A stretch of 64,000 bases of DNA from Deroplatys truncata. Lineage: Eukaryota > Arthropoda > Insecta > Mantodea > Mantidae. Under the pieces are notes generated by a model. The model was not told the origin of the DNA. It worked only from the letters and a program-made list of their open reading frames with translations, and searched no databases. Shown piece by piece: positions 30,904-53,062 of this stretch. Position numbers and translations under genes: made by a program. Position 1 is the stretch's first letter. Each line of letters begins with the position of its first letter. The stretch is from the NCBI GenBank assembly GCA_030765065.1, contig CM060976.1:59132539-59196538 (forward strand), read 5' to 3'.

Positions 30904-32283
30904 CATTTCCCCTGCATGATTAATTTGCTACGCTGTGGCCATTCTATGTTATTACACCAAAAGGACTTCAACATACATTGGTTTTCCTAATCAGGATTAT
31001 GATATCAAATTATAAGTAAATGAAACTAAATGTCGGCCACATTCTCCTGTTTGCGTAAATCGGTTCGAAACTGCATCGTTGAGTAAAACGAACGATTTTG
31101 CCGAGCTACCGTTGAGTATTAATTGCTTTTCTTCTCAAACATCAGAACAAAGCCTTTTGATTACGTCTTTGTAGCTTCATTAGCAAATATTGTGCTCCAT
31201 AATATTATGAATTTCCCTCCTTTGTTCAAGCTCATTTTGGAGCTTTATATTCTGCTTATTCTTTGGCATTTCTTTAGCTAAATATTTTGCTTAGGTCGAT
31301 TGTGTTCTACCCCGTGAAAATGCCCAGTTCTGGACTCAGTTTACAGATGGATATAACTCTTGCTTACTGTAATCCGTTTGAAAACTCTATTTTTCTGCGT
31401 CTTACAATTAAAAGTTGCAGCGGCCATTTAAATAATAAATTAATCTACTACATATATTTTATGTAAATAAATACAATTTTCAGTAGAAATTGAAAGTTAT
31501 ATATGCCATGGATATATGAGCCGTATTTAATTATAATAAATGGATTCACATCCTCCCTTGGGTACGAATTTACTTTTTACTTACAGAACATTAATGAATG
31601 TTAAATAGAAGTTGAAACCGATTTATGCCCATCGAAAGAGCACACTGAAATGTGTAAAACCCACGAATACTACAACCTATTGCGCATATATCCTTTATTA
31701 TCATAAATACTGACACCAAAATTTACCCCTTATCTCTCGATTGACGAAACTACGTAGCGGCTTCCGGAATTTTTTATATTGCCTAAACATCCTTCCTCAG
31801 CAGTATTAACTATCGATATTCAATATTTATTTTTGTTTCAAGACGGAATGTTCTGCGAAAGAAAATCATATAGCTGTAATAGAGTTACATAAGTGTCCGA
31901 AGGAAAGGCATTTTTCAATTTGTTGAAACCACTGGAATTTCACTAGATTTTTATGGGACCATTAAAACATCTTTCTAGTGTTGATGATTAACCAAGATGT
32001 GGCCGTCCTCACTCGGTTGGAACCCCGCATATGATAAAGTGTAGGAACGCGTCAGAAGAAATACTGTTAGGAAACAAAACGTAATGGCGTAGCAGCTTCA
32101 AATGTTAATAATGACTGCCTCTGGGCTATTAAATTCAAGACCTAGGACTTCGGGCTTACCCCGGATGTACAGGACACATACTCAACACCCGCCTTAAGAA
32201 GATTAGACTGGAGTGATCACGTAACCTCCTTAGACGGCACGCCAAAAATCAGCATCGGAGAATCATCTTTTGTGGCAGTAATT
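30904..32283. other. No gene seen; AT-rich intergenic DNA
   Basis: About 1.4 kb without recognisable repeats or coding sequence. Confidence 0.5.
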
Positions 32284-33135
32284 TGTATCACAATAATGTA
32301 AATGCCAGAGTGATTGTAGTGTAAATAAGCATTATTGTATGACATTGATTTGAGATGTTTGTTAATTATAAGCATTGTTAGGAAATAACTTAACACGGCC
32401 TCACTGAAACTGACAATAGGAGCGGATAACAATGCGCGAGGGGGTGAGTTGAATATTAATTAGAAGAGACAAACAAATGACGTCAGATTGGCGCGCTTTT
32501 CTTAGAAATAGCGGGAATATTTTCCCTTAAGCATATGTTTTCGTAGTTTTTGATTGGATATAAAAATAGACGCTAATGTTGGCGCGTTTTATTAACCAAT
32601 AGCAGCTCGGTTATAATCTTTAGGCATATCGGGGTGTGGGAGTATAAAACGCTAAAGTCAGAGGCAGATTTCGTCAGTCCAACAGAAGCATTCGCGTGTA
32701 ATACGTTCATCAGTTCAACATAAGTATTCGTGAGTTATACGTCGCGTAGTTTAACGGAAGCATACATAAAGTACACGTTACGCAATTCTACAGAATCTCT
32801 CGCGTCTTAAAGTTTGTTATAAATGTGAAACACGCGAATTAATAATGTGCAGTAAATAAGTGATTATAGTGATATTAGAAAATATAAGTTTCAGTCTGGC
32901 GTGTATCAAGAGTCAATATGTGAACTCAATTAATTGTGATGGTAATAAAAGTGTAAAAACAGATTATTTTATCAGTGTTATCTGTGAGTAACAAATCCTT
33001 TCCGTTTACACACCCTGTTCAAGAGATTTGCTTGACCGAGAAATAATAGCTAGCCGGAGGACAATGAACCCAACATTCAAAGTAGTAATGCAATAACAGG
33101 CGCCCAGCAAAAGATAACACGAAGTGACCGCGACA
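32284..33135 (+). mobile_element. LTR of a retroelement fossil (second copy)
   Basis: Starts TGTATCACAATAATG and ends GCGACA, about 852 bp, the same family as 16307-17162. TGACGTCA near 32477, TATA box GAGTATAAAA near 32640, tandem CAGTTCAACA-type units near 32675-32760 and AATAAAAGTG near 32944 are in the same places. A solitary LTR with a short stretch of leader. Divergence from the first copy suggests separate insertions and not one element's two ends. Confidence 0.75.
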
Positions 33136-33304
33136 AATTGGCTTCCATACGTGGTGCAGATAAACATAAAGCATCTTCCAACTACTGCTAACAAATATTC
33201 CACTGTAAATTGGCGCACAAACGTGGGGCTAACAAACCATCTACTTCACTTTCAAACAAAACAAATGTTCATAATAGAGTAGAAATTCAACAGAGGGAAC
33301 GACA
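33136..33304 (+). other. LTR-element leader with two primer-site-like motifs
   Basis: Directly after the LTR is a tRNA-Lys-like primer-site variant, and a closer match (AATTGGCGCACAAACGTGGGGC) recurs at 33208-33229, 72 bp on. Fossil leader without coding remains. Confidence 0.5.
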
Positions 33305-33735
33305 GAGTGTATGCTCAGGGTCGTGAGGAATCCCCAAGTTGCTACTCGGGTTCTTCGTGGCTATCATCCAGCATCAGTGATGGCTTAGTTGGAAGTCCCG
33401 TACAAAGGGGGTATTGATGTTTATTTCTGCTTAAAGGGGGTCAGGACCATTATCAATGTGTATGTAGAGGAAGACCTGAAAACTCTTAACCAGACAATAT
33501 TCGCCGGTGATCACCAAATCTTCCAACAGGACAACATTCTGGCCCATAAAGCTCGGAAGACTCGGCAGTGGCTCAGGCACAACGTTCCTGATTCCATTAG
33601 CCATACGGATTGGCCAGTCTAGTGAACTGTGGGAAATTTTGGAGGCCAAGGCTAGCTCTTCAATCATCGCAACCTTGGAAGTCCAAAAAGATCCCTGAGT
33701 CGAGCAGGGGCACATCTGGGCATAAACGTCGTGCA
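33305..33735 (+). pseudogene. Tc1/mariner transposase C-terminal relic
   Basis: Reads VATRVLRGYHPASVMAW, then VYVEEDLKTLNQTIFAG and FQQDNILAHKARKTRQWL (about 33523-33576), the second-aspartate motif of mariner-type DDE/D transposases, then VPDSISHTDWP. After a frame change, 33620-33700 reads SSELWEILEAKASSS. The N-terminus is absent, and terminal repeats were not found. The giant palindrome begins 26 bp after this relic, so the target was already old transposon DNA. Confidence 0.75.
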
Positions 33736-33754: not shown

Positions 33755-33760
33755 GCCATT
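33755..33760. repeat. Left 6-bp target-site duplication of the Polinton-like element
   Basis: GCCATT directly outside the AGTAGG terminus, repeated perfectly at 50473-50478. Six bp is the known Polinton duplication length. Confidence 0.85.
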
Positions 33761-33780
33761 AGTAGGTTATTTAGGAGAGA

Positions 33781-35450
33781 TCGAGCACAGTTTTTTGGGC
33801 ATATATGGGAAAGGATAGGGAAAACGAGGCTAGATGGGGAGGTTCAAGGAGGAAAATGGGTTTATATGGGGGAGATAGGGAATACGACGTCTGATACTAT
33901 GCTAGACAGGGTTGAAGGAGGGAAATACGTTTATATGGAAGAAATAGTAGAGAGGTGTTAGGCTAGACAGAGGTGGAGAAGTAGAGCATGGTTTATATGA
34001 AAGGTATAGGAAAACGAGGAGGGGTGTTAGGCTAGACAGAGGTCGAGAAGTAGAGCATGGTTTATATGAAAGGTATAGGAAAACGAGGAGGGGTGTTAGG
34101 CTAGACAGAGTTGAAGGTTAGAGCATGTCTTTTATATGAGAGAGGTAGGGAACAGGAGCAGGGGTGTTAGGTAGACAGAGGTCAAGAAGTAGAGTATGGT
34201 TTATATGAAAGGTATAGGAAAACGAGGAGGACTGTTAGGCTAGACAGAGTTGAATGGTAGAGTATGTCTTTTATATGAGAGAGGTTGGGAACAGGAGGAG
34301 GGGTGTTAGGCTAGACAGAGGTTGAGGAGTAGAGTATGGTTTATATGAGAGATATAGGAAAACGAGGAGAGGTGTTAGGCTAGACAGAAGTCAAGAAGTA
34401 GAGTATGGTTTATATGAGACGTATAGGAAAACGAGGAGAGGTATTAGGCTAGGAGGGTTTAAGTATGCGTTTATAAGGAGAGACGAGAAAACGGAGAGAG
34501 AACCTATGTTAGGATACACAGGTGTTTAAAGCTAGAATGTGTTTTATATAGGTTAGATAGGAAACCAAAGAGATACTCAGCTAGACAGGGGACAGGAGAG
34601 GAATGCGCTTTATGAGAGGTAGGGGATACAGGGAGTGGTGTTAGGCTAGACAGAGGTTGAGAGTAGAGTATGCGTTTATATGTATGAGAAGTATAGGAAC
34701 AGGAAGAGGGGTGCTAGGCTAGACAGAGGTCAAGAAGTAGAGTATAGGAAAGGTATAGGAAAACGAGGTGGACTGTTAGGCTAGACAGAGTTGAAGGGTA
34801 GAGTATGTCCTTTATGTGAGAGAGGTAGGGAACAGGAGGAGAGGTGTTAGGCTAGACAGAGTTGAAGGGTAGAGTCTGTCTTTTATATGAGAGAGGTAGG
34901 GAACAGGGGTAGGGGTGTTAGGCTAGACAGAGGTTCGAGGTGTAGAGTATGGTTTATATGAGAGATATAGGAAAACGAGGAGAGATATTAGGCTAAGCAG
35001 GTCGAGTATGCGTTTATAAGGAGAGACGAGAAAACGGAGAGAGATCCTATGCTAGGATAGACAGGTGTTAAAGTTAGGTTAGATAGGAAACCAAGGAGTG
35101 ATACTCAGCTAGAGGGGGGCAGGAGGAATGCGCTTTACGAGAAGTAGGGGATACGGGGAGTGGTGTTAGGCTAGACAGAGATTGAGAGTAGAGTAGGCGT
35201 TTATATGTATGAGAAGTATAGAACAGGAGGAGGGGTGTTAGGCTAGACAGAGGTTGAGGAGTAGAGTATAGTTTATATAAGGGTATAGGAAAACGCGGAG
35301 AGGTGTTAGGCTAGACAGAGGTCGAGGAGTAGAGTATGGTTTATATGAGAGGTACAGGGAAACGAGGAGAGTTGCTAGGCTAGACAGATAGTGAAGCAGT
35401 AGGAATATGGACTTATATACAGGAGAGATAGGGAATAGGAGGGGAGGTGC
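33781..35450. repeat. ~69-bp tandem array, left arm tip
   Basis: About 24 variable units with the word GTGTTAGGCTAGACAGAGGT and TTTATATGA, spaced about 69 bp where regular (33954, 34023, 34092). No coding sense. Mirrored at 48785-50450. Confidence 0.9.
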
Positions 35451-35532
35451 TAGATCTTGAAAGCGACTTTAGACGTGAACTTCGCGGAAAACTGTTTCAT
35501 GTCAATGTTCTTGACTTGCCTATCATGTAACC

Positions 35533-36178
35533 CATTCAGGGAAAAGGTGACCAGCAAAGGGAAAAAGGTGACCAGCAAAGGGAAAAAGGTGACCAGCAAA
35601 GGGAAAAAGGTGACCAGCAAAGGGAAAAATGTGACCTGCAAAGGGAAAAACGTGACCAGCAAAGGGAAAAACGTGACCAGGAAAGGGAAAAAGGTGACCA
35701 GCAAAGGGAAGAACGTGATCAGCAAAGGGAAAAAGGTGACCAGCAATGGGAAAAAATGTGACCAGCAACGGGAAAAACGTTACCAGCAAAGGGAAAAAGG
35801 TGACCAGCAACGGGAAAAACGTGACCAGCAAAGGGAAAAAGGTGACCAGCAAAGGGAAAAAGGTGACTAGCAAAGGGAAAAAGGTGACCAGCAAAGGGAA
35901 AAAGGTGACCAGCAAAGGGAAAAAGGTGACCAGCAAAGGGAAAAAGGTGACCAGCAAAGGGAAAAAAGGTGACCAGCAAAGGGAAAAATGTGACCAGCAA
36001 AGGGAAAAATGTGACCAGCAAAGGGAAAAATGTGACCAGCAAAGGGAAAAATGTGGCCAGCAAAGGGAAAAAGGTGACCAGTAAAGGGAAAAATGGGACC
36101 AGCAAAGGGAAAAAGGTGACCAGCAAAGGGAAAAAGGTGACCAGGAAAGGGAAAAAAGGTAACCAGCAAAGGGAAAAG
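35533..36178. repeat. 21-bp tandem array, left arm
   Basis: About 30 units of the type GTGACCAGCAAAGGGAAAAAG. The length is a multiple of three, so all six frames stay open (VTSKGKK, DQQREKG, PLLVTFF) and give long ORFs that are artefacts. The right arm carries six more units. Confidence 0.95.
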
Positions 36179-36194
36179 CTAACCCAATCACACT

Positions 36195-36600
36195 AGCAGA
36201 TAAGTAATTCAGTTAGTATCACAGGGTAGGACAGATCCTGGGAAGCGAATATAGCATAGTTTCGTATTTCACAGGTAACTCAGCTAGTATCGTAGGTATT
36301 TAGCATAATTCAAGTGTGATAGGTGTTTAGAGTAATTCAGCTAGCATTACAGGAGGATAGGTTCCAGGGTCGGTTATAACATAGCTTCGTATTTTACAGT
36401 TAGTTCAGGTAATATCGTAAGTATTTGGGTAATCAGCATAGTTTCACAGATACTCGTGATAATTTCGATCAGAGATTTGTATCAGAGCTAGTTAAGGTAA
36501 TTTCACATGATTCGGGTAGTATCACAGGTATTTAAGTCATTTTAACAAGTAATTCAACTAGTATCACAGCTACTCATTGTAATAGAGAGAGTAATTAGAT
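36195..36600. repeat. Loose repeat zone, left arm
   Basis: The word AATTCAGCTAGTATCACAGG recurs in variants near 36206, 36274, 36332, 36401, 36508 and 36550, spaced roughly 40-110 bp. A third repeat layer between the tip and the polymerase gene; mirrored in the right arm (about 47508-47913). Confidence 0.7.
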
Positions 36601-36749
36601 TATAAACATTTCTCATCCAACGTAACAACAATTTATATACTTTTTCTAAATCTTACAAACTTATTATATGTTAAACACTTATTGTACGATGCAGAGAGGG
36701 ATAAACTGCATATTGGTTCACAAATTGAAAAGCTTTGCGTCAACATACC

Positions 36750-36755
36750 TTTATT
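36750..36755 (-). terminator. Polyadenylation signal of the left polymerase gene
   Basis: AATAAA on the minus strand about 210 bp after the stop codon; the mirror copy is at 47353-47358. Confidence 0.5.
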
Positions 36756-36963
36756 TTTTTAGTTCATTGTAGATGTCTCTCCCCTTTTATCTAGGCTTGA
36801 GACTAGCACTAGGATTGCTCCTAATGGCAGGGTTACCACCTTCCCTTCCATCTTCTTCTTTCTTCATCAGGCGTCTGCTAGTCGCATACACAGCACACGG
36901 ATAAACTTAATTTTTTAAGATTGTAGACTCACGAGAAAATCTTCATCTTCAACTTACATTCTC

Positions 36964-39900
36964 TTAAGCACTGTTTGTAATGGCGTAATGTCCATATGCA
37001 TAGGTAGTTATTCCATCCTCAGCAATAATTCTTTTATCATCAAAGGGATTCAATGCAATTTTATTCACTTGCACTGTGGTAACATCATGCTTTCGTGATA
37101 GGATTAGATTCATGGGCGTTCTGATGATTTCACAGGTTTTAAGACAGTCTGTATAGCTGTCAAACGAAATGTACTGCTTAATAGCGCTACGTTTTATACC
37201 TTTAATCTTTTTTATCATTGAGCCTTGAATATCTAAGGCATACATCTTAGGACGTAGTCCAACAAAGCGTAGGATGATTTTGCTATTAGCCTCATCTTTA
37301 AATTTTCCCAATACCTTCTTGTTCTGAGTAGAGTGGCATATATGATTGACAGGGTAATCAGCTGTATCCAGATGCTCAAGAAAACGTAACTTGTCCTGGT
37401 ACACATCTTCAGTTGTTACACGATGAATGAATGAATCAGTGTCCATATACATAAGCTTCAGGTTTTCAGCTCCATAATAAGGCAACAACACATCGTAATG
37501 ATAGCTATACATTAATGTCTTGGAGATGTCCAACACACTCATACCAATGTATATAGGCTTGTTGAATACAATCTGACGAGAGGCCATATGTACAGCAGCT
37601 AGATTAGCAGCATATATCGTGCTGTCGATAAACGTAGGCTTAGCGATCAGCTTCTCTAGAGTTTTTTCATTGGTCACCAGTCGTATGTCCATACGGTTAC
37701 GCAGGTTCTCCATAGTTTTTCCAAACATGGCGTTGTTAAAGAGCTTGTAGAGATCCTTCTCGAAGTCATTTGCAGCTTGTTGTCGTAGCCTGTTGTTAAA
37801 TTCCACATAAGGTTTCAACCACCGAGACTGTCGGAATTGTAGCACACGATGGATTTTTGTTAGTCGTAGTCCATGACTAAGAGCTTGCTTCAAAGCCATG
37901 TAATGCACTACATACTTCTTTCGAGGTCCAAGATGGGGTATCAGTTTCTTTGTAGATGCTTCCAATGGCTTCATACACTCAGGCAGGAAAGGTAGATCGT
38001 TGTGTAGATCGTGAAGTTCTACAGGATACTCGATATCGACTTCTAATATGTAACCATGAGAATCATCTTCTTGTAGTGTTTCTAAGTTGATTTCTTCAGG
38101 CGAAACCCACTGAAATCCACCATAAGGAAGGGCGTGACACATTGCCCACCCATATTGGTTATTAGCATCCTCGTATGTGATAAATTGGGTTGGTCTCGAC
38201 GGATCAAACTTCTCCATATAAGGGTTATTAGCCTCTGCATACCGATGGGAAACTTGACATAAACCTCCTCTTATACCTGATTCCACCATGAGTAGTTGAT
38301 CATAATCTTGTAACAGCTCCAGCTTAATTCCTGTATACAACAACATGGCGTCCCATGTAAGTCCTGGAGAGGTAAAATAATGGGCAGGATCAACTTTGTG
38401 TGTTTTAAGGGTTTGCTCTCTGAACGTCTCAAAGACATCAGCTAGGAGTAGTACATCTGAGGTTACGTAGAGATCGCTGTACTCTCCCAGGTTTCTCACA
38501 TTAAACAGCTCCCATACATTTCTAGCATGATCATAGTCAGCATCACTAATTTCTTCTTCATTTAATCTATTGTAGAAGGTGTGCTTAGGAGGCAAGCAGG
38601 TCTCGTACAGGGCATCCCAGGAAGTGACGTAATCATAGGTAAATACCCCCTTACGAGTCATCAACTTCAATTTGTCTTCTCCGAAGTACTTTAGTGTTTC
38701 AGGATATGAGGTTAGATTTTTTACCAACTTATCCAAGCTTGTACTGAGGAAACGGAAGCTGTCCACAAATCGAAGCTTTATATCTCCTACATACTTGGTG
38801 AATGAGATATAGCTTTCTTCAGAGTTAGGAATTACCTCCACACGTTCACTTGTACAACCCAGCTCCTTAACAATGAAATGAGAGTCATATCCGCTAAGGT
38901 TATGCATGAAGACTGGTATATATTTAGGTGTTTTACAGGCTAAATTACATTCATTATGAAGACTTCCACGATATTCACCGCTGATGTGGTCATGGTCGCG
39001 TACTTTGTAGTTCTCTTCTGTAAAGGGTTTTCCGCACAAGTAGCATGTCGTAGAAGACTCAAAATCCTTTTGCTGTTGATCCGTAAGTTTCAGAGGCTTA
39101 GCAGATTTGTATACGGCATCAATCATTTTTGCAAGAGATGTCAGGTACAGCATAAACTTCTGAGCAGCATCAGCACCACGATACACATAGGGTTGCTTAG
39201 GAAGACCAGTTTCGAGATGTTCAACACTGGATGTAGGCTTCACGTAAACACAGAAGCTCATTGGTGTGTGCTCTTGATAAGGGGTTGTATAGGAAGTTTC
39301 AGGATTGGGTATACACGTGTGGCATGGAGTGAGAATACTCTCAAAATCAGCATAGATGACATAAGGTACTTCCAGCATCCTCTCAACATTTTTAAACTGT
39401 ACAATTGATTTATCCTTGGTAGGCATAACTACCCTTGCAACACCATGTTGATTACAGGTGGCTGCATGTTCTTGTAGTTTTTCCAGTCCGTTTCGTCCAT
39501 ATCGATCATCAAAATGTGTAAAACAGCGCTTACAAGTATAAACCCGTCCATTATGGTTAGTTTTCTGTCGTCGAATGAGTTTCTCAAAATTCTTTATATA
39601 TACGTAGTGATGTTTTCCACTATCATCATTCAATAGTAGCATGTCGCAGTGCTCAGGTAGTTCAATATCAGCAACCTTTATCGGATACACTTCATGCTTC
39701 TCATCTAGCCCGAAAACGTTAATAGACATATTGTTAAGCTTCTCAAATTTAGGTATTTGAGAAAGTGGAGTAGGATAGGAAACACAGCTGAAGTCGTACT
39801 TGTCTTGAAGTTGTTTGTATTTGTTCACACGCTGTGCATTCTTCTCAACATATTTGGCTAGTACAGAGTACATGAAACATTTCTCGTCGGTAAAGTTCTG

Positions 39901-40617
39901 AATGTTTATACACGCTTCTTTAGCTCCGACAGATGACGGTAGTGGTATGTAGCTACTTCCTCGCAACGGATTGTACTTGTTGATACGAAGTCGAAGTCCT
40001 TCCACTGCAAGCAAAGCCCAGTTGCTACCCTTAAGCTGAGACTCCTCCATTTCAGTCACCAATTTCTTGAATTTCGCTTCCAGTGTTGAGTCCAGATCTG
40101 TTTCTAGGAAAACAGGATGATTCCTTGTTTTAAATGTTTTGTCGCAGGTTTCTCCAATACTGTTAACAAATCGACACTCCGCCAGCAGATTAATTTTAAC
40201 ACTCTTGTGAATACCAAGCTCTTTATACACAGCCTGGATTATCCGTTGTTTTGCCTCTTGCAGATACATATTCAGGTCCTTATGTGATTCACATCGTATA
40301 AAATACGATTTCAATCGTCCTTCGAATGAAGTTTCGTATTCTTTCATATCACAGTCCTCCATTGTTGACAGTAACTGATGTTTAGTGGGCTCCAACCTTC
40401 TTTTCTTCTGAGGGATGCTTATTTCACATATATCTTCATGTCGCTGCCCCTTATAACCATCATTGAAGGTCAAGCTACAATGTTTACATTTGAAGAGCTT
40501 CTTACAGGTCATCTCGTGTCTTCTCTTGTGATAACCTCGGAGGAACTTCTTCCCACATTTTCCGCATGCATATCCAGTAGCGCTTGGAATAATATTATTG
40601 TACGCTGAGTTATTCAT
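36964..40617 (-). CDS. polB: Protein-primed-type DNA polymerase B, Polinton family, looks whole
   Basis: 1,217 aa, in the range of Polinton polymerases. Two C2HC zinc fingers open it (C18, C21, H34, C38 and C44, C47, H60, C64), and a third is at 362-388. Proofreading exonuclease: ExoI DFE at 424-426, ExoII HNLSGYD at 572-578, ExoIII YxxxD at 717-721. Between ExoI and ExoII an endonuclease-VII-like HNH motif, CYLC (525-528) to RDHDH (540-544) and HNECN, is inserted. Polymerase: motif A EDANNQYG at 816-823, motif B NNAMFGK at 961-967, motif C YMDTDS at 1057-1062, then KMY at 1124-1126. It would copy a linear genome from a protein primer in the nucleus (known for the family). The start follows a TATA/initiator promoter by about 130 bp. 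No terminal-protein domain is obvious. Confidence 0.92.
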   Translation of the reverse strand: MNNSAYNNIIPSATGYACGKCGKKFLRGYHKRRHEMTCKKLFKCKHCSLTFNDGYKGQRHEDICEISIPQKKRRLEPTKHQLLSTMEDCDMKEYETSFEGRLKSYFIRCESHKDLNMYLQEAKQRIIQAVYKELGIHKSVKINLLAECRFVNSIGETCDKTFKTRNHPVFLETDLDSTLEAKFKKLVTEMEESQLKGSNWALLAVEGLRLRINKYNPLRGSSYIPLPSSVGAKEACINIQNFTDEKCFMYSVLAKYVEKNAQRVNKYKQLQDKYDFSCVSYPTPLSQIPKFEKLNNMSINVFGLDEKHEVYPIKVADIELPEHCDMLLLNDDSGKHHYVYIKNFEKLIRRQKTNHNGRVYTCKRCFTHFDDRYGRNGLEKLQEHAATCNQHGVARVVMPTKDKSIVQFKNVERMLEVPYVIYADFESILTPCHTCIPNPETSYTTPYQEHTPMSFCVYVKPTSSVEHLETGLPKQPYVYRGADAAQKFMLYLTSLAKMIDAVYKSAKPLKLTDQQQKDFESSTTCYLCGKPFTEENYKVRDHDHISGEYRGSLHNECNLACKTPKYIPVFMHNLSGYDSHFIVKELGCTSERVEVIPNSEESYISFTKYVGDIKLRFVDSFRFLSTSLDKLVKNLTSYPETLKYFGEDKLKLMTRKGVFTYDYVTSWDALYETCLPPKHTFYNRLNEEEISDADYDHARNVWELFNVRNLGEYSDLYVTSDVLLLADVFETFREQTLKTHKVDPAHYFTSPGLTWDAMLLYTGIKLELLQDYDQLLMVESGIRGGLCQVSHRYAEANNPYMEKFDPSRPTQFITYEDANNQYGWAMCHALPYGGFQWVSPEEINLETLQEDDSHGYILEVDIEYPVELHDLHNDLPFLPECMKPLEASTKKLIPHLGPRKKYVVHYMALKQALSHGLRLTKIHRVLQFRQSRWLKPYVEFNNRLRQQAANDFEKDLYKLFNNAMFGKTMENLRNRMDIRLVTNEKTLEKLIAKPTFIDSTIYAANLAAVHMASRQIVFNKPIYIGMSVLDISKTLMYSYHYDVLLPYYGAENLKLMYMDTDSFIHRVTTEDVYQDKLRFLEHLDTADYPVNHICHSTQNKKVLGKFKDEANSKIILRFVGLRPKMYALDIQGSMIKKIKGIKRSAIKQYISFDSYTDCLKTCEIIRTPMNLILSRKHDVTTVQVNKIALNPFDDKRIIAEDGITTYAYGHYAITNSA

Positions 40618-40750
40618 CTTTATTCTTGATGTAATAACGTATTAATCCTTCTTCAAGGGAAATGTAGACCTCTTCACCTTGATATCACTTAGAAAGCTGA
40701 TTATTCTTGGAGAGAACACAATGTTAACACCTCAAGACTAATTAGCGCAA

Positions 40751-40783
40751 TGAACTCCAATGCCCTAGATCACCGTATTTATA
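40751..40783 (-). promoter_or_regulatory. Core promoter of the left polymerase gene
   Basis: Minus-strand TATAAATA (40776-40783) and arthropod-type initiator TCATTG with its A at 40751, 32 bp apart, which is the normal spacing. The transcript would have a ~133-bp leader before the ATG. Confidence 0.6.
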
Positions 40784-40809
40784 GAGGGAGCACGAGCCTT
40801 TTAGATCAA

Positions 40810-40965
40810 TCATAAACTCGCTCCATAGCTACCTGTATATGTTTGCTCCACGCGTATTAACCTCACGCCCAGAGTCAGGATGTTTATGACGTCACACCCA
40901 GAGACAGGATGTCTGGCAGTTTCAAACACGTTTAAACTCGTCTCGTAACTACCTATATATGCTGT
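40810..40965 (-). promoter_or_regulatory. Upstream repeats and CRE-like site, left promoter
   Basis: Two similar ~30-bp blocks (AAACTCGCTCCATAGCTACC near 40814 and AAACTCGTCTCGTAACTACC near 40933) flank two CCCAGAGNCAGGATGT words and one TGACGTCA (40887-40894), the CREB/ATF consensus. This suggests cAMP/stress-type control; inference only. Mirror copy at about 43143-43298. Confidence 0.4.
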
Positions 40966-41529
40966 CACACCAACAAGAGAAGTATTCCCACACGCTCATT
41001 CAGTCAGATGTTCCATTCCAAGCCTACCAACACCCATTACACCAAAGCTAGCACAATCTCAAAGGCTTAAAAGGTAACGTAGAGGATTTTCCTCATTATT
41101 TACTTAAATGTATGTATATACTACATTATTTCATGTTTTCATTCCCTTTTCAATTCTTCCTTTCCATATTCTTTCAGAAAGACCATTACATTTCACTACA
41201 ATCACGAGAAAAGCATTTTTTCCAGAGTTTCACAGATTCTAAGCTTCTAGAATCGAACCCTGTAATAGTTTTAATAAATGTATTTTTAGTAATTTAGCTC
41301 CCTCACATCAGCATCTACCATTTAATCTTTACTCGAACCTGATAGGATTCATAGGCTTGAAGATATATGAAATCACCCCTTCGGGATTCGATCTGAGTAC
41401 TTTAAAGTACCTTTTTTTGTCATGATAACGATATTTAGGAACTAGGTACTCTGTTTACGGTTTACTTGACGTGTCTATATAAATTAGATGACGAGTTATT
41501 AAATTTGCAAGTAAATTTCATTAAATCGG

Positions 41530-42579
41530 AGAGCTGGCGTAGTTAATTTATGCATGGAATGCAATTAATATGCTAATTAGCCCCACCCCCACTAATTAGC
41601 CCCCCTCTCATTTCCACCCTACTGTTTAATCGCTTATATCTCCTGAATGAAAAGAGATAGAACAATGGGATAAAAACTAATCAATTCTTTGGAATGCGCC
41701 GCGTCCTTGAGATATTAATCCGAGTTGTCCGGGATGCCTGGGTTCGAATCTCACGAGTAATTACAAATTCAACTTCTAATAACTCAGAGACTAATTAAGA
41801 TAAAGACGCCAAATAAATTTTATTACATTTATATCATTAGGTAGTTTCTTCTGAATGTACATTTGGATACCTGGTGTCCTGGGTTCGATCCTTAATTTTA
41901 AATCTTCATTATCTCGGAAACTAAGAAAGGTAGGGGGATGGACCAAAGCATGTTTGATAGCTGTTATAATGTGTAATTAATACTGTATATAATTTTCAAT
42001 CAGTTGTCCCTAGTTCGAATCCCGATTTTTAAATGATTTCCTTAATTTTTCTCTGTATACTAGAATATATCACTTAGATTGATTACGTAACTGTATACAA
42101 CTCTTTTTAACGTAGCAAACTAATTTTATAAATAATTTTGTTTCTGGTGTTCTGGGTTCGAATACCGATAAAATGTAATTTAATTATAAATTTAATAACT
42201 CCTAAACTACTTAAGATAAAGACGTCAAATAAACTTTATTACATTTATATCAATAGGTAGTTTCTTGCGGATCTATATTTAGGGATCTGGTTTCCTGAGT
42301 TCGATTCTTAATTTTAAATCTTCATTATCTCTGGAACTAAATGAGGTAGAGGAGTGGGCCAAAGCATGTTTGATAGGATCTGTACTGGGTAATTAATGCT
42401 GTATATAATTGTCAATCAATTGTGCTTGGTTCGATTCCCATCTTTTAACGAGTTCCTTAATTTTCCTCTGTACACTAGAATATATCACTTAGATTGATAG
42501 CGTAACTGCACACAGCTTTGATTAACATGTCAAGCTAATATTATAAATTATTTTGTTCCTGGTGTTCTGGGTTCGAATA
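41530..42579 (+). repeat. Central spacer: higher-order repeat of B-box-bearing ~140-bp monomers
   Basis: The only non-palindromic part of the element. GGTTCGA-type motifs lie at 41741, 41882, 42012, 42155, 42298, 42428 and 42570, with spacings of 141, 130, 143, 143, 130 and 142 bp. Every third monomer matches best, giving a 414-415 bp trimer present about twice. Motifs such as GGTTCGATTCCC fit the tRNA B-box (TFIIIC site), but I see no A-box at a proper distance. The series runs on into the right arm (AGATCGA at 42714, GGTTCGATTC at 42849). No ORF. Confidence 0.85.
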
Positions 42580-43324
42580 CCGATTTAATGAAATTTACTT
42601 GCAAATTTAATAACTCGTCATCTAATTTATATAGACACGTCAAGTAAACCGTAAACAGAGTACCTAGTTCCTAAATATCGTTATCATGACAAAAAAGGTA
42701 CTTTAAAGTACTCAGATCGAATCCCGAAGGGGTGATTTCATATATCTTCAAGCCTATGAATCCTATCAGGTTCGAGTAAAGATTAAATGGTAGATGCTGA
42801 TGTGAGGGAGCTAAATTACTAAAAATACATTTATTAAAACTATTACAGGGTTCGATTCTAGAAGCTTAGAATCTGTGAAACTCTGGAAAAAATGCTTTTC
42901 TCGTGATTGTAGTGAAATGTAATGGTCTTTCTGAAAGAATATGGAAAGGAAGAATTGAAAAGGGAATGAAAACATGAAATAATGTAGTATATACATACAT
43001 TTAAGTAAATAATGGGGAAAATCCTCTACGTTACCTTTTAAGCCTTTGAGATTGTGCTAGCTTTGGTGTAATGGGTGTTGGTAGGCTTGGAATGGAACAT
43101 CTGACTGAATGAGCGTGTGGGAATACTTCTCTTGTTGGTGTGACAGCATATATAGGTAGTTACGAGACGAGTTTAAACGTGTTTGAAACTGCCAGACATC
43201 CTGTCTCTGGGTGTGACGTCATAAACATCCTGACTCTGGGCGTGAGGTTAATACGCGTGGAGCAAACATATACAGGTAGCTATGGAGCGAGTTTATGATT
43301 GATCTAAAAGGCTCGTGCTCCCTC

Positions 43325-43357
43325 TATAAATACGGTGATCTAGGGCATTGGAGTTCA
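43325..43357 (+). promoter_or_regulatory. Core promoter of the right polymerase gene
   Basis: TATAAATA (43325-43332) and initiator TCATTG with A at 43357, the exact mirror of the left promoter. TGACGTCA at 43214-43221. Confidence 0.6.
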
Positions 43358-43490
43358 TTGCGCTAATTAGTCTTGAGGTGTTAACATTGTGTTCTCTCCA
43401 AGAATAATCAGCTTTCTAAGTGATATCAAGGTGAAGAGGTCTACATTTCCCTTGAAGAAGGATTAATACGTTATTACATCAAGAATAAAG

Positions 43491-46400
43491 ATGAATAACT
43501 CAGCGTACAAGAATATTATTCCAAGCGCTACTGGATATGCATGCGGAAAATGTGGGAAGAAGTTCCTCCGAGGTTATCACAAGAGAAGACACGAGATGAC
43601 CTGTAAGAAGCTCTTCAAATGTAAACATTGTAGCTTGACCTTCAATGATGGTTATAAGGGGCAGCGACATGAAGATATATGTGAAATAAGCATCCCTCAG
43701 AAGAAAAGAAGGTTGGAGCCCACTAAACATCAGTTACTGTCAACAATGGAGGACTGTGATATGAAAGAATACGAAACTTCATTCGAAGGACGATTGAAAT
43801 CGTATTTTATACGATGTGAATCACATAAGGACCTGAATATGTATCTGCAAGAGGCAAAACAACGGATAATCCAGGCTGTGTATAAAGAGCTTGGTATTCA
43901 CAAGAGTGTTAAAATTAATCTGCTGGCGGAGTGTCGATTTGTTAACAGTATTGGAGAAACCTGCGACAAAACATTTAAAACAAGGAATCATCCTGTTTTC
44001 CTAGAAACAGATCTGGACTCAACACTGGAAGCGAAATTCAAGAAATTGGTGACTGAAATGGAGGAGTCTCAGCTTAAGGGTAGCAACTGGGCTTTGCTTG
44101 CAGTGGAAGGACTTCGACTTCGTATCAACAAGTACAATCCGTTGCGAGGAAGTAGCTACATACCACTACCGTCATCTGTCGGAGCTAAAGAAGCGTGTAT
44201 AAACATTCAGAACTTTACCGACGAGAAATGTTTCATGTACTCTGTACTAGCCAAATATGTTGAGAAGAATGCACAGCTTGTGAACAAATACAAACAACTT
44301 CAAGACAAGTACGACTTCAGCTGTGTTTCCTATCCTACTCCACTTTCTCAAATACCTAAATTTGAGAAGCTTAACAATATGTCTATTAACGTTTTCGGGC
44401 TAGATGAGAAGCATGAAGTGTATCCGATAAAGGTTGCTGATATTGAACTACCTGAGCACTGCGACATGCTACTATTGAATGATGATAGTGGAAAACATCA
44501 CTACGTATATATAAAGAATTTTGAGAAACTCATTCGACGACAGAAAACTAACCATAATGGACGGGTTTATACTTGTAAGCGCTGTTTTACACATTTTGAT
44601 GATCGATATGGACGAAACGGACTGGAAAAACTACAAGAACATGCAGCCACCTGTAATCAACATGGTGTTGCAAGGGTAGTTATGCCTACCAAGGATAAAT
44701 CAATTGTACAGTTTAAAAATGTTGAGAGGATGCTGGAAGTACCTTATGTCATCTATGCTGATTTTGAGAGTATTCTCACTCCATGCCACACGTGTATACC
44801 CAATCCTGAAACTTCCTATACAACCCCTTATCAAGAGCACACACCAATGAGCTTCTGTGTTTACGTGAAGCCTACATCCAGTGTTGAACATCTCGAAACT
44901 GGTCTTCCTAAGCAACCCTATGTGTATCGTGGTCCTGATGCTGCTCAGAAGTTTATGCTGTACCTGACATCTCTTGCAAAAATGATTGATGCAGTATACA
45001 AATCTGCTAAGCCTCTGAAACTTACGGATCAACAGCAAAAGGATTTTGAGTCTTCTACGACATGCTACTTGTGCGGAAAACCCTTTACAGAAGCGAACTA
45101 CAAAGTACGCGACCATGACCACATCAGCGGTGAATATCGTGGAAGTCTTCATAATGAATGTAATTTAGCCTGTAAAACACCTAAATATATACCAGTCTTC
45201 ATGCATAACCTTAGCGGATATGACTCTCATTTCATTGTTAAGGAGCTGGGTTGTACACGTGAACGTGTGGAGGTAATTCCTAACTCTGAAGAAAGCTATA
45301 TCTCATTCACCAAGTATGTAGGAGATATAAAGCTTCGATTTGTGGACAGCTTCCGTTTCCTCAGTACAAGCTTGGATAAGTTGGTAAAAAATCTAACCTC
45401 ATATCCTGAAACACTAAAGTACTTCGGAGAAGACAAATTGAAGTTGATGACTCGTAAGGGGGTATTTCCCTATGATTACGTCACTTCCTGGGATGCCCTG
45501 TACGAGACCTGCTTGCCTCCTAAGCACACCTTCTACAATAGATTAAATGAAGAAGAAATTAGTGATGCTGACTATGATCATGCTAGAAATGTATGGGAGC
45601 TGTTTAATGTGAGAAACCTGGGAGAGTACAGCGATCTCTACTTAACCTCAGATGTACTACTCCTAGCTGATGTCTTTGAGACGTTCAGAGAGCAAACCCT
45701 TAAAACACACAAAGTTGATCCTGCCCATTATTTTACCTCTCCAGGACTTACATGGGACGCCATGTTGTTGTATACAGGAATTAAGCTGGAGCTGTTACAA
45801 GATTATGATCAACTACTCATGGTGGAATCAGGTATAAGAGGAGGTTTATGTCAAGTTTCCCATCGGTATGCAGAGGCTAATAACCCTTATATGGAGAAGT
45901 TTGATCCGTCGAGACCAACCCAATTTATCACATACGAGGATGCTAATAACCAATATGGGTGGGCAATGTGTCACGCCCTTCCTTATGGTGGATTTCAGTG
46001 GGTTTCGCCTGAAGAAATCAACTTAGAAACACTACAAGAAGATGATTCTCATGGTTACATATTAGAAGTCGATATCGAGTATCCTGTAGAACTTCACGAT
46101 CTACACAACGATCTACCTTTCCTGCCTGAGTGTATGAAGCCATTGGAAGCATCTACAAAGAAACTGATACCCCATCTTGGACCTCGAAAGAAGTATGTAG
46201 TGCATTACATGGCTTTGAAGCAAGCTCTTAGTCATGGACTACGACTAACAAAAATCCATCGTGTGCTACAATTCCGACAGTCTCGGTGGTTGAAACCTTA
46301 TGTGGAATTTAACAACAGGCTACGACAACAAGCTGCAAATGACTTCGAGAAGGATCTCTACAAGCTCTTTAACAACGCCATGTTTGGAAAAACTATGGAG

Positions 46401-47144
46401 AACCTGCGTAACCGTATGGACATACGACTGGTGACCAATGAAAAAACTCTAGAGAAGCTGATCGCTAAGCCTACGTTTATCGACAGGACGATATAAGCTG
46501 CTAATCTAGCTGCTGTACATATGGCCTCTCGTCAGATTGTATTCAACAAGCCTATATACATTGGTATGAGTGTGTTGGACATCTCCAAGACATTAATGTA
46601 TAGCTATCATTACGATGTGTTGTTGCCTTATTATGGAGCTGAAAACCTGAAGCTTATGTATATGGACACTGATTCATTCATTCATCGTGTAACAACTGAA
46701 GATGTGTACCAGGACAAGTTACGTTTTCTTGAGCATCTGGATACAGCTGATTACCCTGTCAATCATATATGCCACTCTACTCAGAACAAGAAGGTATTGG
46801 GAAAATTTAAAGATGAGGCTAATAGCAAAATCATCCTACGCTTTGTTGGACTACGTCCTAAGATGTATGCCTTAGATATTCAAGGCTCAATGATAAAAAA
46901 GATTAAAGGTATAAAACGTAGCGCTATTAAGCAGTACATTTCGTTTGACAGCTATACAGACTGTCTTAAAACCTGTGAAATCATCAGAACGCCCATGAAT
47001 CTAATCCTATCACGAAAGCATGATGTTACCACAGTGCAAGTGAATAAAATTGCATTGAATCCCTTTGATGATAAAAGAATTATTGCTGAGGATGGAATAA
47101 CTACCTATGCATATGGACATTACGCCATTACAAACAGTGCTTAA
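43491..47144 (+). pseudogene. polB: Protein-primed-type DNA polymerase B, second copy, broken
   Basis: Inverted mirror of the left polymerase gene: same length, no length change across the gene (mirror coordinates sum to 84,108 at both ends), and the same zinc fingers, exonuclease, HNH and polymerase motifs. Broken, with about one break; otherwise it differs from the left copy at only a handful of residues, so the duplication or last exchange between arms is recent. It reads outward, head to head with the left copy, 2.9 kb apart start to start. Confidence 0.88.
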
Positions 47145-47352
47145 GAGAATGTAAGTTGAAGATGAAGATTTTCTCGTGAGTCTACAATCTTAAAAAATTA
47201 AGTTTATCCGTGTGCTGTGTATGCGACTAGCAGACGCCTGATGAAGAAAGAAGAAGATGGAAGGGAAGGTGGTAACCCTGCCATTAGGAGCAATCCTAGT
47301 GCTAGTCTCAAGCCTAGATAAAAGGGGAGAGACATCTACAATGAACTAAAAA

Positions 47353-47358
47353 AATAAA
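47353..47358 (+). terminator. Polyadenylation signal after the right polymerase gene
   Basis: AATAAA, mirror of 36750-36755. Confidence 0.5.
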
Positions 47359-47507
47359 GGTATGTTGACGCAAAGCTTTTCAATTTGTGAACCAATATGC
47401 AGTTTATCCCTCTCCGCATCGTACAATAAGTGTTTAACATATAATAAGTTTGTAAGATTTAGAAAAAGTATATAAATTGTTGTTACGTTGGATGAGAAAT
47501 GTTTATA

Positions 47508-47913
47508 ATCTAATTACTCTCTCTATTACAATGAGTAGCTGTGATACTAGTTGAATTACTTGTTAAAATGACTTAAATACCTGTGATACTACCCGAATCA
47601 TGTGAAATTACCTTAACTAGCTCTGATACAAATCTCTGATCGAAATTATCACGAGTATCTGTGAAACTATGCTGATTACCCAAATACTTACGATATTACC
47701 TGAACTAACTGTAAAATACGAAGCTATGTTATAACCGACCCTGGAACCTATCCTCCTGTAATGCTAGCTGAATTACTCTAAACACCTATCACACTTGAAT
47801 TATGCTAAATACCTACGATACTAGCTGAGTTACCTGTGAAATACGAAACTATGCTATATTCGCTTCCCAGGATCTGTCCTACCCTGTGATACTAACTGAA
47901 TTACTTACCTGCT
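47508..47913. repeat. Loose repeat zone, right arm
   Basis: Mirror of 36195-36600: variants of CCTGTGATACTAGCTGAATT. Confidence 0.7.
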
Positions 47914-47929
47914 AGTGTGAGTGGGTTAG

Positions 47930-48701
47930 CTTTTCCCTTTGCTGGTTACCTTTTTTCCCTTTCCTGGTCACCTTTTTCCCTTTGCTGGTCACCTTTTTCC
48001 CTTTGCTGGTCCCATTTTTCCCTTTGCTGGTCCCATTTTTCCCTTTACTGGTCACCTTTTTCCCTTTGCTGGCCACATTTTTCCCTTTGCTGGTCACATT
48101 TTTCCCTTTGCTGGTCACATTTTTCCCTTTGCTGGTCACATTTTTCCCTTTGCTGGTAGCCTTTTTCCCTTTGCTGGTCACCTTTTTTCCCTTTGCTGGT
48201 CACCTTTTTCCCTTTGCTGGTCAGCTTTTTCCCTTTGCTGGTAACGGTTTTCCCTTTGCTGGTCACGTTTTTGCCTTTGCTGGTCACGTTTTTGCCTTTG
48301 CTGGTCACCTTTTTCCCTTTGCTGGTCACCTTTTTCCCTTTGCTGGTCACCTTTTTCCCTTTGCTAGTCACCTTTTTCCCTTTGCTGGTCACCTTTTTCC
48401 CTTTGCTGGTCACGTTTTTCCCGTTGCTGGTCACCTTTTTCCCTTTGCTGGTAACGTTTTTCCCGTTGCTGGTCACATTTTTTCCCATTGCTGGTCACCT
48501 TTTTCCCTTTGCTGATCACGTTCTTCCCTTTGCTGGTCACCTTTTTCCCTTTCCTGGTCACGTTTTTCCCTTTGCTGGTCACGTTTTTCCCTTTGCAGGT
48601 CACATTTTTCCCTTTGCTGGTCACCTTTTTCCCTTTGCTGGTCACCTTTTTCCCTTTGCTGGTCACCTTTTTCCCTTTGCTGGTCACCTTTTCCCTGAAT
48701 G
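47930..48701. repeat. 21-bp tandem array, right arm
   Basis: About 36 units (reverse complement of the left array), 126 bp longer than the left array, i.e. exactly six units. A few units have their own variants (for example GTTTTTGCCTTTGCTGGTCAC). Confidence 0.95.
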
Positions 48702-48784
48702 GGTTACATGATAGGCAAGTCAAGAACATTGACATGAAACAGTTTTCCGCGAAGTTCACGTCTAAAGTCGCTTTCAAGGTCTAG

Positions 48785-50450
48785 CACCTCCCCTCCTATT
48801 CCCTATCTCTCCTGTATATAAGTCCATATTCCTACTGCTTCACTATCTGTCTAGCCTAGCAACTCTCCTCGTTTCCCTATACCTCTCATATAAACCATAC
48901 TCTACTCCTCGACCTCTGTCTAGCCTAACACCTCTCCGCGTTTTCCTATACCCTTATATAAACTATACTCTACTCCTCAACCTCTGTCTAGCCTAACACC
49001 CCTCCTCCTGTTCTATACTTCTCATACATATAAACGCCTACTCTACTCTCAATCTCTGTCTAGCCTAACACCACTCCCCGTATCCCCTACTTCTCGTAAA
49101 GCGCATTCCTCCTGCCCCCCTCTAGCTAGTATCACTCCTTGGTTTCCTATCTAACCTAACTTTAACACCTGTCTATCCTAGCATAGGATCTCTCTCCGTT
49201 TTCTCGTCTCTCCTTATAAACGCATACTCGACCTGCTTAGCCTAATATCTCTCCTCGTTTTCCTATATCTCTCATATAAACCATACTCTACACCTCGAAC
49301 CTCTGTCTAGCCTAACACCCCTACCCCTGATCCCTACCTCTCTCATATAAAAGACAGACTCTACCCTTCAACTCTGTCTAGCCTAACACCTCTCCTCCTG
49401 TTCCCTACCTCTCTCACATAAAGGACATACTCTACCCTTCAACTCTGTCTAGCCTAACAGTCCACCTCGTTTTCCTATACCTTTCCTATACTCTACTTCT
49501 TGACCTCTGTCTAGCCTAGCACCCCTCTTCCTGTTCCTATACTTCTCATACATATAAACGCATACTCTACTCTCAACCTCTGTCTAGCCTAACACCACTC
49601 CCTGTATCCCCTACCTCTCATAAAGCGCATTCCTCTCCTGTCCCCTGTCTAGCTGAGTATCTCTTTGGTTTCCTATCTAACCTATATAAAACACATTCTA
49701 GCTTTAAACACCTGTGTATCCTAACATAGGTTCTCTCTCCGTTTTCTCGTCTCTCCTTATAAACGCATACTTAAACCCTCCTAGCCTAATACCTCTCCTC
49801 GTTTTCCTATACGTCTCATATAAACCATACTCTACTTCTTGACCTCTGTCTAGCCTAACACCTCTCCTCGTTTTCCTATATCTCTCATATAAACCATACT
49901 CTACTCCTCAACCTCTGTCTAGCCTAACACCCCTCCTCCTGTTCCCAACCTCTCTCATATAAAAGACATACTCTACCATTCAACTCTGTCTAGCCTAACA
50001 GTCCTCCTCGTTTTCCTATACCTTTCATATAAACCATACTTTACTTCTTGACCTCTGTCTACCTAACACCCCTGCTCCTGTTCCCTACCTCTCTCATATA
50101 AAAGACATGCTCTAACCTTCAACTCTGTCTAGCCTAACACCCCTCCTCGTTTTCCTATACCTTTCATATAAACCATGCTCTACTTCTCGACCTCTGTCTA
50201 GCCTAACACCCCTCCTCGTTTTCCTATACCTTTCATATAAACCATGCTCTACTTCTCCACCTCTGTCTAGCCTAACACCTCTCTACTATTTCTTCCATAT
50301 AAACGTATTTCCCTCCTTCAACCCTGTCTAGCATAGTATCAGACGTCGTATTCCCTATCTCCCCCATATAAATCCATTTTCCTCCTTGAACCTCCCCATC
50401 TAGCCTCGTTTTCCCTATCCTTTCCCATATATGCCCAAAAAACTGTGCTG
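48785..50450. repeat. ~69-bp tandem array, right arm tip
   Basis: Mirror of 33781-35450. The stretch from the 21-bp array to the tip differs from the left arm by only 1 bp in net length. Confidence 0.9.
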
Positions 50451-50472
50451 GATCTCTCCTAAATAACCTACT

Positions 50473-50478
50473 GCCATT
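50473..50478. repeat. Right 6-bp target-site duplication of the Polinton-like element
   Basis: GCCATT, identical to 33755-33760. Confidence 0.85.
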
Positions 50479-50997: not shown

Positions 50998-51363
50998 ATT
51001 ATATTATTCGCAGTAAATTCTTTTCTTTGCGATGTAAATATATTTAATATATGCATTTTAATCAAAATCGTTTGGGCCATTTTTAAGAATATCACAATTT
51101 GAAACATTTTCATGTAAAGGGTAGTTTTGGGTGCGGATTTTCTTGCAAGCCTTCGGGTCGCAATTTTGGAAGATATTGAACCTAAATAACATGTTTAGAA
51201 GCTATCCGACTTTTCGTTTTTGGGTTATGCTGTTCACGCTAAAAATTGTTTTTTGGATTCAAGAGCCTCAAAACATGTATTTTTGGTGAAATCTCGATAT
51301 CTAGTTTTTGGGTGGAATGCAATACCTTCTCTACCTACTATGTACGAGGTAGTGAAAGTAAAA
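50998..51363 (-). mobile_element. ACTTTCTCTAC-end element, partial copy
   Basis: Holds the right part of the family in reverse orientation, from the ATTTTAATCAAAATCGTT landmark to GGTAGTGAAAGTAAAA. It lacks the GT tract. Confidence 0.7.
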
Positions 51364-52175
51364 GTGCATTGTGAGTAATCAAATAAAGGTAATGGCTCAT
51401 TTCTAGCACTACCTTCTAAATAAGAAAGTTTCGTGTGTGCGGGGAGTACCACCTAAAACTACCCCCGCAAACCTCTCTGAAGCTAAAGAGGAATTGGAAA
51501 ACGACGTTCACATAAATGGGGCTTATTAATGTAGATGATATAGGTCATTCAAAAATGTAAGCATATACCATTTTCAACATTAATTTATCTTTTTTTAAAT
51601 GTTAACCCCGTATATGTTAACGCAATTGATATGATGGTATGTGCCATTAAAAATAGCATCTGTTACATCGCAATAGATTAATTACATCCGAGAAATTGTA
51701 GCGTGAAGTCGACGCCTGAGATACAATGAAATGAAATTCATTTGAATATTCCGAGCTTCAAAAACGTCCTTGAATCACAAGCGCGAACTTCACGTTGTAG
51801 TTAATTGCGAGGTGATCGATATATTACAATGCGACATAGGATATTCTTAGTGTCATTTGCGCTTTATCAATTGCTAAAGTAACTGGATGAGACTCAAGAC
51901 CTCATCCAAGGGAGTAGTCGCTCCTGTTATTGTGAGCTCAAACTGGCCCAATGAGTAGTATCTATGAGTACCCCTTCTCAAGGTTACGAGAATGTCAGGC
52001 AAGAATCTTAGCCGTAGAGAAGACAACTTTCCTAGAGGTAGAAACCCCAAAATCAAGCCCGGTCCACCAGAGTGGAGCTTATGCAATTCACCCATGTAGA
52101 AAATATAGAACGCATAAGCTCCAATTAGGAAAAATACGGCAGATTTAAGTGGACAAACAAAACTGAAGATTATAG
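51364..52175. other. No gene seen
   Basis: Anonymous DNA; ORFs of 65-73 codons on opposite strands overlap and show no motif. Confidence 0.5.
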
Positions 52176-53045
52176 AAAAAAATCTGATGTGTTACACTCA
52201 CATGACTTTCTCTACTCTTGTACAAACTATTTTTACAAACGCTTATTCTGCATATGCTTCATGTTAATCGAGATATCGAGATGTCAATCTTATTGGTAAT
52301 TTTCTTGTAGATGCAAGGGAAATATGGTAGCTTTTAAGCGATAGTCAAATATTTTAACGCTGGTTGCTATGTGGCGCATTCCATTCTCTTTGCATGTCCA
52401 GGACATTAAAAAATGAATAACGAATTTGAGAAAAAGTACAAGTATTGGAAAATTTAAGGGAATAACAAGCAATATCTCGAAAACGGTTCACTCAACAACA
52501 AAAATGTATATGACATAAATTGTGTATTTTAACGCGATCTACATCTTTTGTGTAGTAAAATTTTGTCTATCTCTTATGGTTTACCAATTTACCAAAAGTC
52601 GTTCAGAATGAAGAATACTTTTGGAGACATTCCCAGAAAATTCAAGATATACATTTTATTTGTCATGAAAATAGCTTAAACATATGATATTTTAATCAAA
52701 ATCGTTAGAGCCATTTTTGAGAAAATTAAAATTTTCGAAAAATGTTCCATGTAAAGGGTACTCTGGGGTGGGGGGGATTTTGTTGAAAACCTTCGTGTCG
52801 CATCTCTGGAAGATACTGAACCTAAATACCAAGTTTGGTGTTTATCCGACTGTTCGTTTCTGAGTTATGCTGTTCACAGTCACACAGACACACACACAGA
52901 CACACACACGGACATGTTTCCAAAAATGCTTTTTTTGGATTCAGGGAGTCTCAAAACATGTATTTCCGGTGAAATCTCGGTATCGAATTTTTGGGTGGAA
53001 TACAATACTTCCCCTACTTACTATACGTAGTAGAGAAAGTAAAAA
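52176..53045 (-). mobile_element. ACTTTCTCTAC-end element, full length, young
   Basis: From AAAAATCTGATGTGTTACAC and GACTTTCTCTAC to GTAGTAGAGAAAGTAAAA. Very close to the 24983-25876 copy, so recently active. Interrupted CA tract at about 52879-52912. Confidence 0.85.
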
Positions 53046-53062
53046 TGGTGTGAACATGCATT

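Follow-up and report, generated by a model that had tools for sequence, protein, structure and literature searches.

The described elements closest to the one analyzed here are the Polintons, or Mavericks. Vertebrate Mavericks have AGT-type ends, 6-bp duplications, and lengths of 12.7–24.6 kb, and intact ones carry inverted repeats of 46–1,447 bp, according to the excerpted text of their description (PMC8097293). Excerpts of a cryptophyte survey mention terminal repeats of a hundred to thousands of base pairs and a filter that allowed 100 bp to 8 kb (PMC12220804), so that long repeats are in themselves not unheard of. We analyzed 64,000 nt of DNA from the mantis Deroplatys truncata (the window), which contains an integrated element that shares several features with Polintons: AGT//ACT ends, 6-bp duplications, a length of ~17 kb as in the vertebrate Mavericks excerpted (PMC8097293), and a protein-primed DNA polymerase B (pPolB) that is 38% identical, across 1,123 amino acids, to the pPolB of an environmental viral contig encoding also an rve integrase and an A32-like ATPase. 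It differs from them in that no integrase, ATPase, protease, or capsid gene was found in it, and in that its inverted repeats (7.8 kb in the window and ~8.5 kb elsewhere), which are not of ordinary length, span nearly everything, making the element a giant palindrome.

Derivatives with one end doubled are known from other protein-primed replicons. A deletion derivative of the kalilo plasmid is said, by the title of the study, to form hairpin and duplex DNA, and is the nearest precedent that we found in print; yeast pGKL1 reportedly has a “hairpin plasmid,” a derivative of a protein-primed plasmid that exists as hairpin and duplex. These plasmid derivatives are deletion by-products in mitochondria or cytoplasm, and the palindromic genomes of adenovirus, a protein-primed virus, in which one end is doubled, are defective by-products and not a lineage (our literature search gave no paper on them). 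With the plasmid derivatives the mantis palindrome, known here from integrated sequence, shares a near-complete palindrome with one polymerase gene in each arm and, putatively, a protein-primed replicon reduced to hairpin and duplex; with the adenovirus genomes it shares a doubled genome end. Unlike the plasmid derivatives, it is a family that integrates into a large genome, with selected open polymerase genes and thousands of gene copies, and unlike the adenovirus by-products it is a lineage. Foldback transposons (FB, Galileo, and Tetris) are also dominated by long inverted repeats, as far as their excerpted descriptions go, and the repeats of the palindrome likewise cover most of the element; however, foldback elements use other enzymes, with a cut-and-paste-type transposase of their own and no polymerase gene inside the repeats, whereas the palindrome has a polymerase gene inside its repeats and no known transposase recognized. 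In our searches of the open-licence literature, a scope outside which most subscription papers fall, no title or abstract opening described a palindromic Polinton, in line with the original prediction, made from the letters of the window, which knew of no described element of this plan.

A family of mobile giant palindromes

The window copy belongs to a family of mobile giant palindromes with two ~8.5-kb arms, a short central loop, one pPolB gene per arm, AGT/ACT ends, and 6-bp duplications. From the outside inward, each arm consists of an AGTAGG terminus, 69-bp repeats, a 21-bp minisatellite, the pPolB gene (read towards the end), and ~140-bp repeats. We searched the same genome (4.29 Gb in 818 contigs) with a 35-base piece of the polymerase gene and obtained 4,443 matches with up to 2 mismatches (2,225 + 2,218), compared with 0 and 0 for the reversed control. 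Half of this number, damaged copies included, suggests ~2,000 elements, which would occupy close to 1% of the genome. The first 100 matches listed are exact and lie on a single contig; 88 of them pair up as 44 mirror pairs oriented as expected, 12 have no partner in that list, and none lie close together in any other orientation. The distance within pairs is 2.2–12.1 kb (median 7.17 kb), with 24/44 at 7.0–7.25 kb. Mirror pairs also make up 30 of the 40 matches listed for a polymerase probe (15 pairs) and 28 of the 40 listed for an inner-arm probe (14 pairs, the window among them), and an end probe has at least 95 genome matches, some as facing-end pairs 9–20 kb apart. Eight of the 10 unpaired polymerase-probe matches were examined at the expected position of the mate, where an inverted arm is present in five.

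We tried 20 other insertions via both end regions and located both ends in 18, which are 11.9–20.5 kb long. Perfect 6-bp duplications flank 17 of them, with 17 different words, and the eighteenth agrees at 5 of 6 positions. The inside is seen mirrored in 14 (15.4–20.5 kb, median 17.2 kb), all with perfect duplications. The insertion ends sort into subfamilies AGTAGGTTATTT, AGTAGGTTATTA, and AGTAGGTAAATA. The search for further insertions that the original prediction had proposed thus found many, with the same head-to-head plan and end type and with different 6-bp duplications. Its reading of the window copy as a doubled-end Polinton derivative that inserted as a unit is supported by these further insertions, each with its own duplication, and between a mobile lineage and a one-off, the lineage is borne out: the window copy is an internally deleted member of a large amplified family.

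Most copies are mirror-symmetric up to the middle. We find that 16 of 20 fetched centers align across the middle to their own reverse complement, the remainder being three centers with spacers of 117, 327, and 529 bp and one partial copy; a center probe is mirrored at 37/40 scored sites, the window being one of the three exceptions. The loop region measures 106–147 bp (16 copies with both anchors) and consists of a short stem and a ~75-nt asymmetric part, the latter delimited by eye. The first five stem positions are alike on both sides in 13/16 copies (TAAAC/TAAAC in eight and TAATC/TAATC in five), and the two sides of the stem carry AGTAG and CTACT, resembling Maverick ends. A simple idea is that the arm may first have been doubled by folding back at a short Polinton-like inverted repeat. 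The loop motif has 715 genome matches with up to 2 mismatches (control: 0). The first 100 comprise 54 single matches and 46 in 23 inverted pairs, all in +/- order and 9–19 kb apart; one such pair lies at C1:42702007 and C1:42718217. From these 23 pairs, another element class seems to bear the motif near both ends, so that fewer palindromes keep it than the polymerase count implies; this class is possibly the non-palindromic parent.

Gene content and a candidate integrase

The only gene recognized in the element is pPolB, one per arm. The original prediction had credited the element with almost no Polinton genes: no other Polinton gene is indeed recognized, but the description was incomplete, as each arm holds a 3.65-kb pPolB gene. 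Pfam DNA_pol_B_2 matches the C-terminal part of the protein (E 7e-25); in another scan this model matched the right-arm frame and missed the whole left-arm protein. The protein has an endonuclease VII-like motif and zinc-finger similarity at its N terminus, and three sequences agree at the residues that we take for exonuclease and polymerase motifs. Cys247 and His337 do not vary among 10 N-terminal sequences, which fits the vOTU protease domain of Polinton pPolB, described in the excerpted text as a single chain of terminal protein, vOTU protease, exonuclease, and polymerase; the same excerpts have cytoplasmic linear plasmids derive from Polintons through loss of the capsid module (PMC11071308). 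By its sequence, the element's polymerase qualifies as protein-primed, with priming itself putative.

No Pfam family, that of a retrovirus-type integrase included, scores above the cut-off in the 10 stop-to-stop pieces of the element scanned, and no packaging ATPase, protease, or capsid gene was found by the same Pfam and tblastn scans, which are weak for fast-evolving capsid genes. No known cut-and-paste transposase is present among the genes recognized in the element, pPolB being the sole one. Searches of viral contigs gave two relatives, one of them the environmental contig with the rve integrase and the ATPase, and the other viral contig queries gave nothing; when the 35 open frames of the two relatives were compared with the window by tblastn, the polymerase was the sole match. 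Neither relative has a long inverted repeat in the part examined (15.6 of 17.4 kb, where the longest is 62 nt, and 13.6 of 15.1 kb, where there is none). Nine short loci in bacterial metagenome-assembled genome records (L005–L013) encode Polinton-type polymerases, with 29–53% identity in matched segments, and are probably eukaryote or virus contamination; no inverted repeat of at least 60 nt occurs in the six of these nine that were checked.

The mantis genome also contains an abundant, little-diverged Polinton family with an rve integrase and an A32-like ATPase, represented by at least 129 scored integrase copies at 97–100% (three with an internal stop) and at least 150 scored ATPase copies at 96–100%. 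This family is a candidate helper, on whose integrase the palindrome may draw. A closer bond, in which polymerase palindrome and integrase/ATPase element are the two mutually dependent parts of one system, is suggested by the coexistence of a polymerase-only family with one that has open integrase and ATPase genes, and by inverted pairs of the latter on contigs C72 and C9. We consider such a system improbable, since the C72 copies have their own polymerase sequence next to the integrase (32–43% identical to that of the window), their arms are not bounded by AGTAGGT ends, and no shared ends were seen.

The C72 stretch (L110; G000:C72:158000-167500) is a second giant inverted duplication, with arms at 384–4659 and 5046–9258 of the stretch. 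It is built of integrase and polymerase stretches from another Polinton family, with polymerase sequence at the outer edges and, by position against a stretch of the integrase/ATPase family (L111), ATPase sequence at the center; no AGTAGGT ends occur in it. As a candidate partner segment of the window palindrome it was rejected, being an inverted duplication of another Polinton with its own polymerase sequence. A similar inverted pair lies at C9:40755565 and C9:40758781.

Evolution of the arms and mode of copying

We compared the arms of 11 insertions (the window copy and 10 others; 22 arms), whose polymerases fall into two clades. Within one insertion, the polymerase copies of the two arms differ at 0–14 of ~3,654 positions, and at just 0–2 in five insertions of clade 2. 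Left arms of different insertions differ by 0.2–0.9% within clade 1, 0.2–1.6% within clade 2, and 3.9–4.5% between clades. In a tree of the 22 arms, the two arms are sisters in 10/11 insertions (support 0.73–0.995), and private changes are common to both arms in 10/11. Both arms are fully open in four insertions; in another four, the longest stop-free piece is the same in both arms and falls short of a full gene. Between clades, pPolB is under purifying selection, with a ratio of nonsynonymous to synonymous changes (dN/dS) of about 0.2 (0.18–0.24 at dS 0.12–0.13); it is 0.17 within clade 2. The low ratio indicates that the polymerase gene stayed functional as the lineage spread, and the near-identity of sister arms that a new insertion brings two copies of one sequence.

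We think it likely that the element is a replicon of Polinton origin, with a single gene and both ends identical, that is copied via a fold-back hairpin and integrated by the integrase of another Polinton. It would descend from a Polinton whose polymerase end was doubled and whose integrase, ATPase, and capsid genes were lost, and both of its ends would be the same origin. The pPolB protein would prime synthesis at an end on its own terminal-protein domain, displacing one strand; being self-complementary, the displaced strand would fold into an ~8.5-kb hairpin. The one open end of this hairpin would act as an origin once more, and synthesis starting there and running through the loop would restore the duplex. 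Integration would then be performed by a retrovirus-type (RVE) integrase acting in trans from ordinary Polintons of the same genome. As fold-back copying of a single strand would derive both arms from one template in each cycle, hairpin copying directly accounts for arms that evolve together.

The arms of a palindromic mobile family might instead be kept alike by gene conversion after insertion, as are those of sex-chromosome palindromes. The four insertions that share a shortened stop-free piece, as if both arms had been broken alike, and the private changes common to both arms are what conversion would leave. Yet the few arm differences in clade 2 are sufficiently explained by copying shortly before insertion, and in the window copy neither the central deletion on one side nor the minisatellite differences between the arms have been evened out; we regard gene conversion as a rather unlikely explanation that nevertheless deserves weight.

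A further possibility is that each palindrome arose separately, from an ordinary Polinton whose terminal repeats grew, at about the time of insertion or later, through break repair using the other end. Such repair preserves the target duplication, and the spread of substitutions in the window copy, where 7/8 transitions between the arms fall in the outer 2.9 kb, had first suggested it. For the family it was set aside, and is very improbable, because many sites share one center and have a very similar mirror spacing. Moreover, insertions of the two polymerase clades have the same plan, which argues that the plan is inherited. Repeat enlargement could be tenable for the first palindrome only.

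Several observations weigh against a palindromic lineage copied by hairpin and integrated by a helper. At the level of the genome, three of the eight unpaired polymerase matches examined have no mate arm in the expected 1.8 kb, and a mirrored inside is not established for 4/18 located insertions (11.9–12.8 kb), which may be shortened. Agreement within the stem drops further in, with all 20 compared positions matching in only 4/16 copies, and the 715 loop motifs, partly in another element class, are far under half of 4,443, which implies many copies with a changed or lost center. The arms are not sisters in one of the 11 insertions, and dN/dS between clade 1 insertions is 0.32–1.06, values that rest on few changes. 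Arm-to-arm gene conversion after insertion, the main alternative to hairpin copying, would likewise yield sister arms. The extrachromosomal hairpin and duplex would belong to an element that we know from integrated copies only, and the terminal-protein domain of its pPolB is putative. Finally, no nucleotide similarity links the candidate helper to the palindrome across the four pieces compared, and the sequence fetched did not reveal the ends of the helper; recognition of the palindrome ends by the helper integrase is putative.

The window copy and the standing of the family

The features of the window copy are collected in Table 1. Its AGT...ACT termini and perfect GCCATT duplication are as first described, and the predicted arm lengths were recovered exactly. 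Its left and right flanks differ, so a read-through artefact with doubled flanks is excluded. Relative to most other copies, the inner part of one arm is ~1 kb short: because those copies are mirrored to the middle, the apparent 1,050-nt spacer consists of the central loop together with the inner end of an arm. The inversion break, between 41529 and 41530, shows no microhomology; as the birth junction of the palindrome it is ruled out, other copies showing that it reflects a later deletion. GC skew reaches 0.67 in the purine-biased 69-bp repeats. The core of the ~140-bp repeats resembles the B box of tRNA genes; despite this GTTCGA core, a tRNA scan and an Rfam scan (gathering score) of the 64-kb window gave no match.

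Table 1. Coordinates of the palindrome and of dispersed repeats in the window
Feature	Position	Strand	Remarks
Whole element	33761-50472		First bases AGTAGGTTAT, last bases ATAACCTACT; ends AGT/ACT
Left target-site duplication, GCCATT	33755-33760	.	
Right target-site duplication, GCCATT	50473-50478	.	
Left palindrome arm, 7,769 bp	33761-41529	+	Inner ~1 kb gone relative to most other copies
Right palindrome arm, 7,893 bp	42580-50472	-	Mate of left arm
Apparent spacer	41530-42579	.	Central loop and inner end of right arm; both orientations at 37/40 scored sites
Central loop with one side of short stem	41530-41631	+	Conserved motif at 41551; end approximate, by eye
Subterminal 69-bp repeats	33950-35419	+	Strand strongly purine-biased
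Subterminal repeats, mirror copy	48846-50283	-	
21-bp minisatellite, 30 copies	35538-36177	+	
21-bp minisatellite, mirror, 36 copies	47931-48696	-	
Protein-primed DNA polymerase B gene	36964-40617	-	1,217 codons open; read towards left end
Mirror polymerase gene	43491-47144	+	Frame interrupted: open frames of 1,001 and 207 codons
~140-bp repeats, GTTCGA core (GTTCGAATC-like)	41258-42850	.	From right arm into center; inverted in left arm
Dispersed repeat copies	5479-6193, 22090-22949, 24985-25885, 29562-30391, 51021-51366, 52171-53046, 57003-57829, 60185-60905, 62943-63700		

The two arms of the window copy differ by 21 substitutions and five indels, three of which (84, 21, and 21 bp) lie inside the 21-bp minisatellite, the other two being single bases. 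All 10 differences between the polymerase genes of the arms are transversions, versus 3/11 outside the gene (Fisher p 0.001). This run could be a base-calling error or an unknown mutation process, and no comparable run occurs in the 10 other insertions compared. Assembly is known to be error-prone at long palindromes, and a base-calling error of this kind would sit well with palindromes that are artefacts of assembly; that explanation is nevertheless scarcely credible in view of the matching 6-bp duplications, each a different word, at 17/18 located sites.

Other repeats in the window include a dispersed repeat of ~0.35–0.9 kb, with at least nine copies ~68–91% alike in both orientations, and two 0.9-kb copies (16299–17193 and 32276–33165), 85% alike, with 36-bp tandem repeats. 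An open frame just left of the insertion (33389–33622) has no Pfam match and resembles a fragment of a Tc1/mariner transposase.

We see about an even chance that these palindromes are a mobile-element class in their own right. Such an element would be a self-complementary replicon with one gene and only one kind of origin; it would regenerate both halves from a single strand by folding back, and would have reached ~2,000 sites via a borrowed integrase, and perhaps capsid, of ordinary Polintons, as a lasting lineage rather than a defective by-product. If so, a hairpin-type derivative with a doubled end, a form of protein-primed replicon that we otherwise know as a dead-end by-product, can give rise to a genomic lineage that is both stable and highly successful. 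The family would then be a natural test bed for Polinton replication, its arms recording each copying cycle, for the use of a viral integrase in trans, and, as long palindromes are usually thought unstable, for the tolerance of a large genome to ~2,000 palindromes of ~17 kb.

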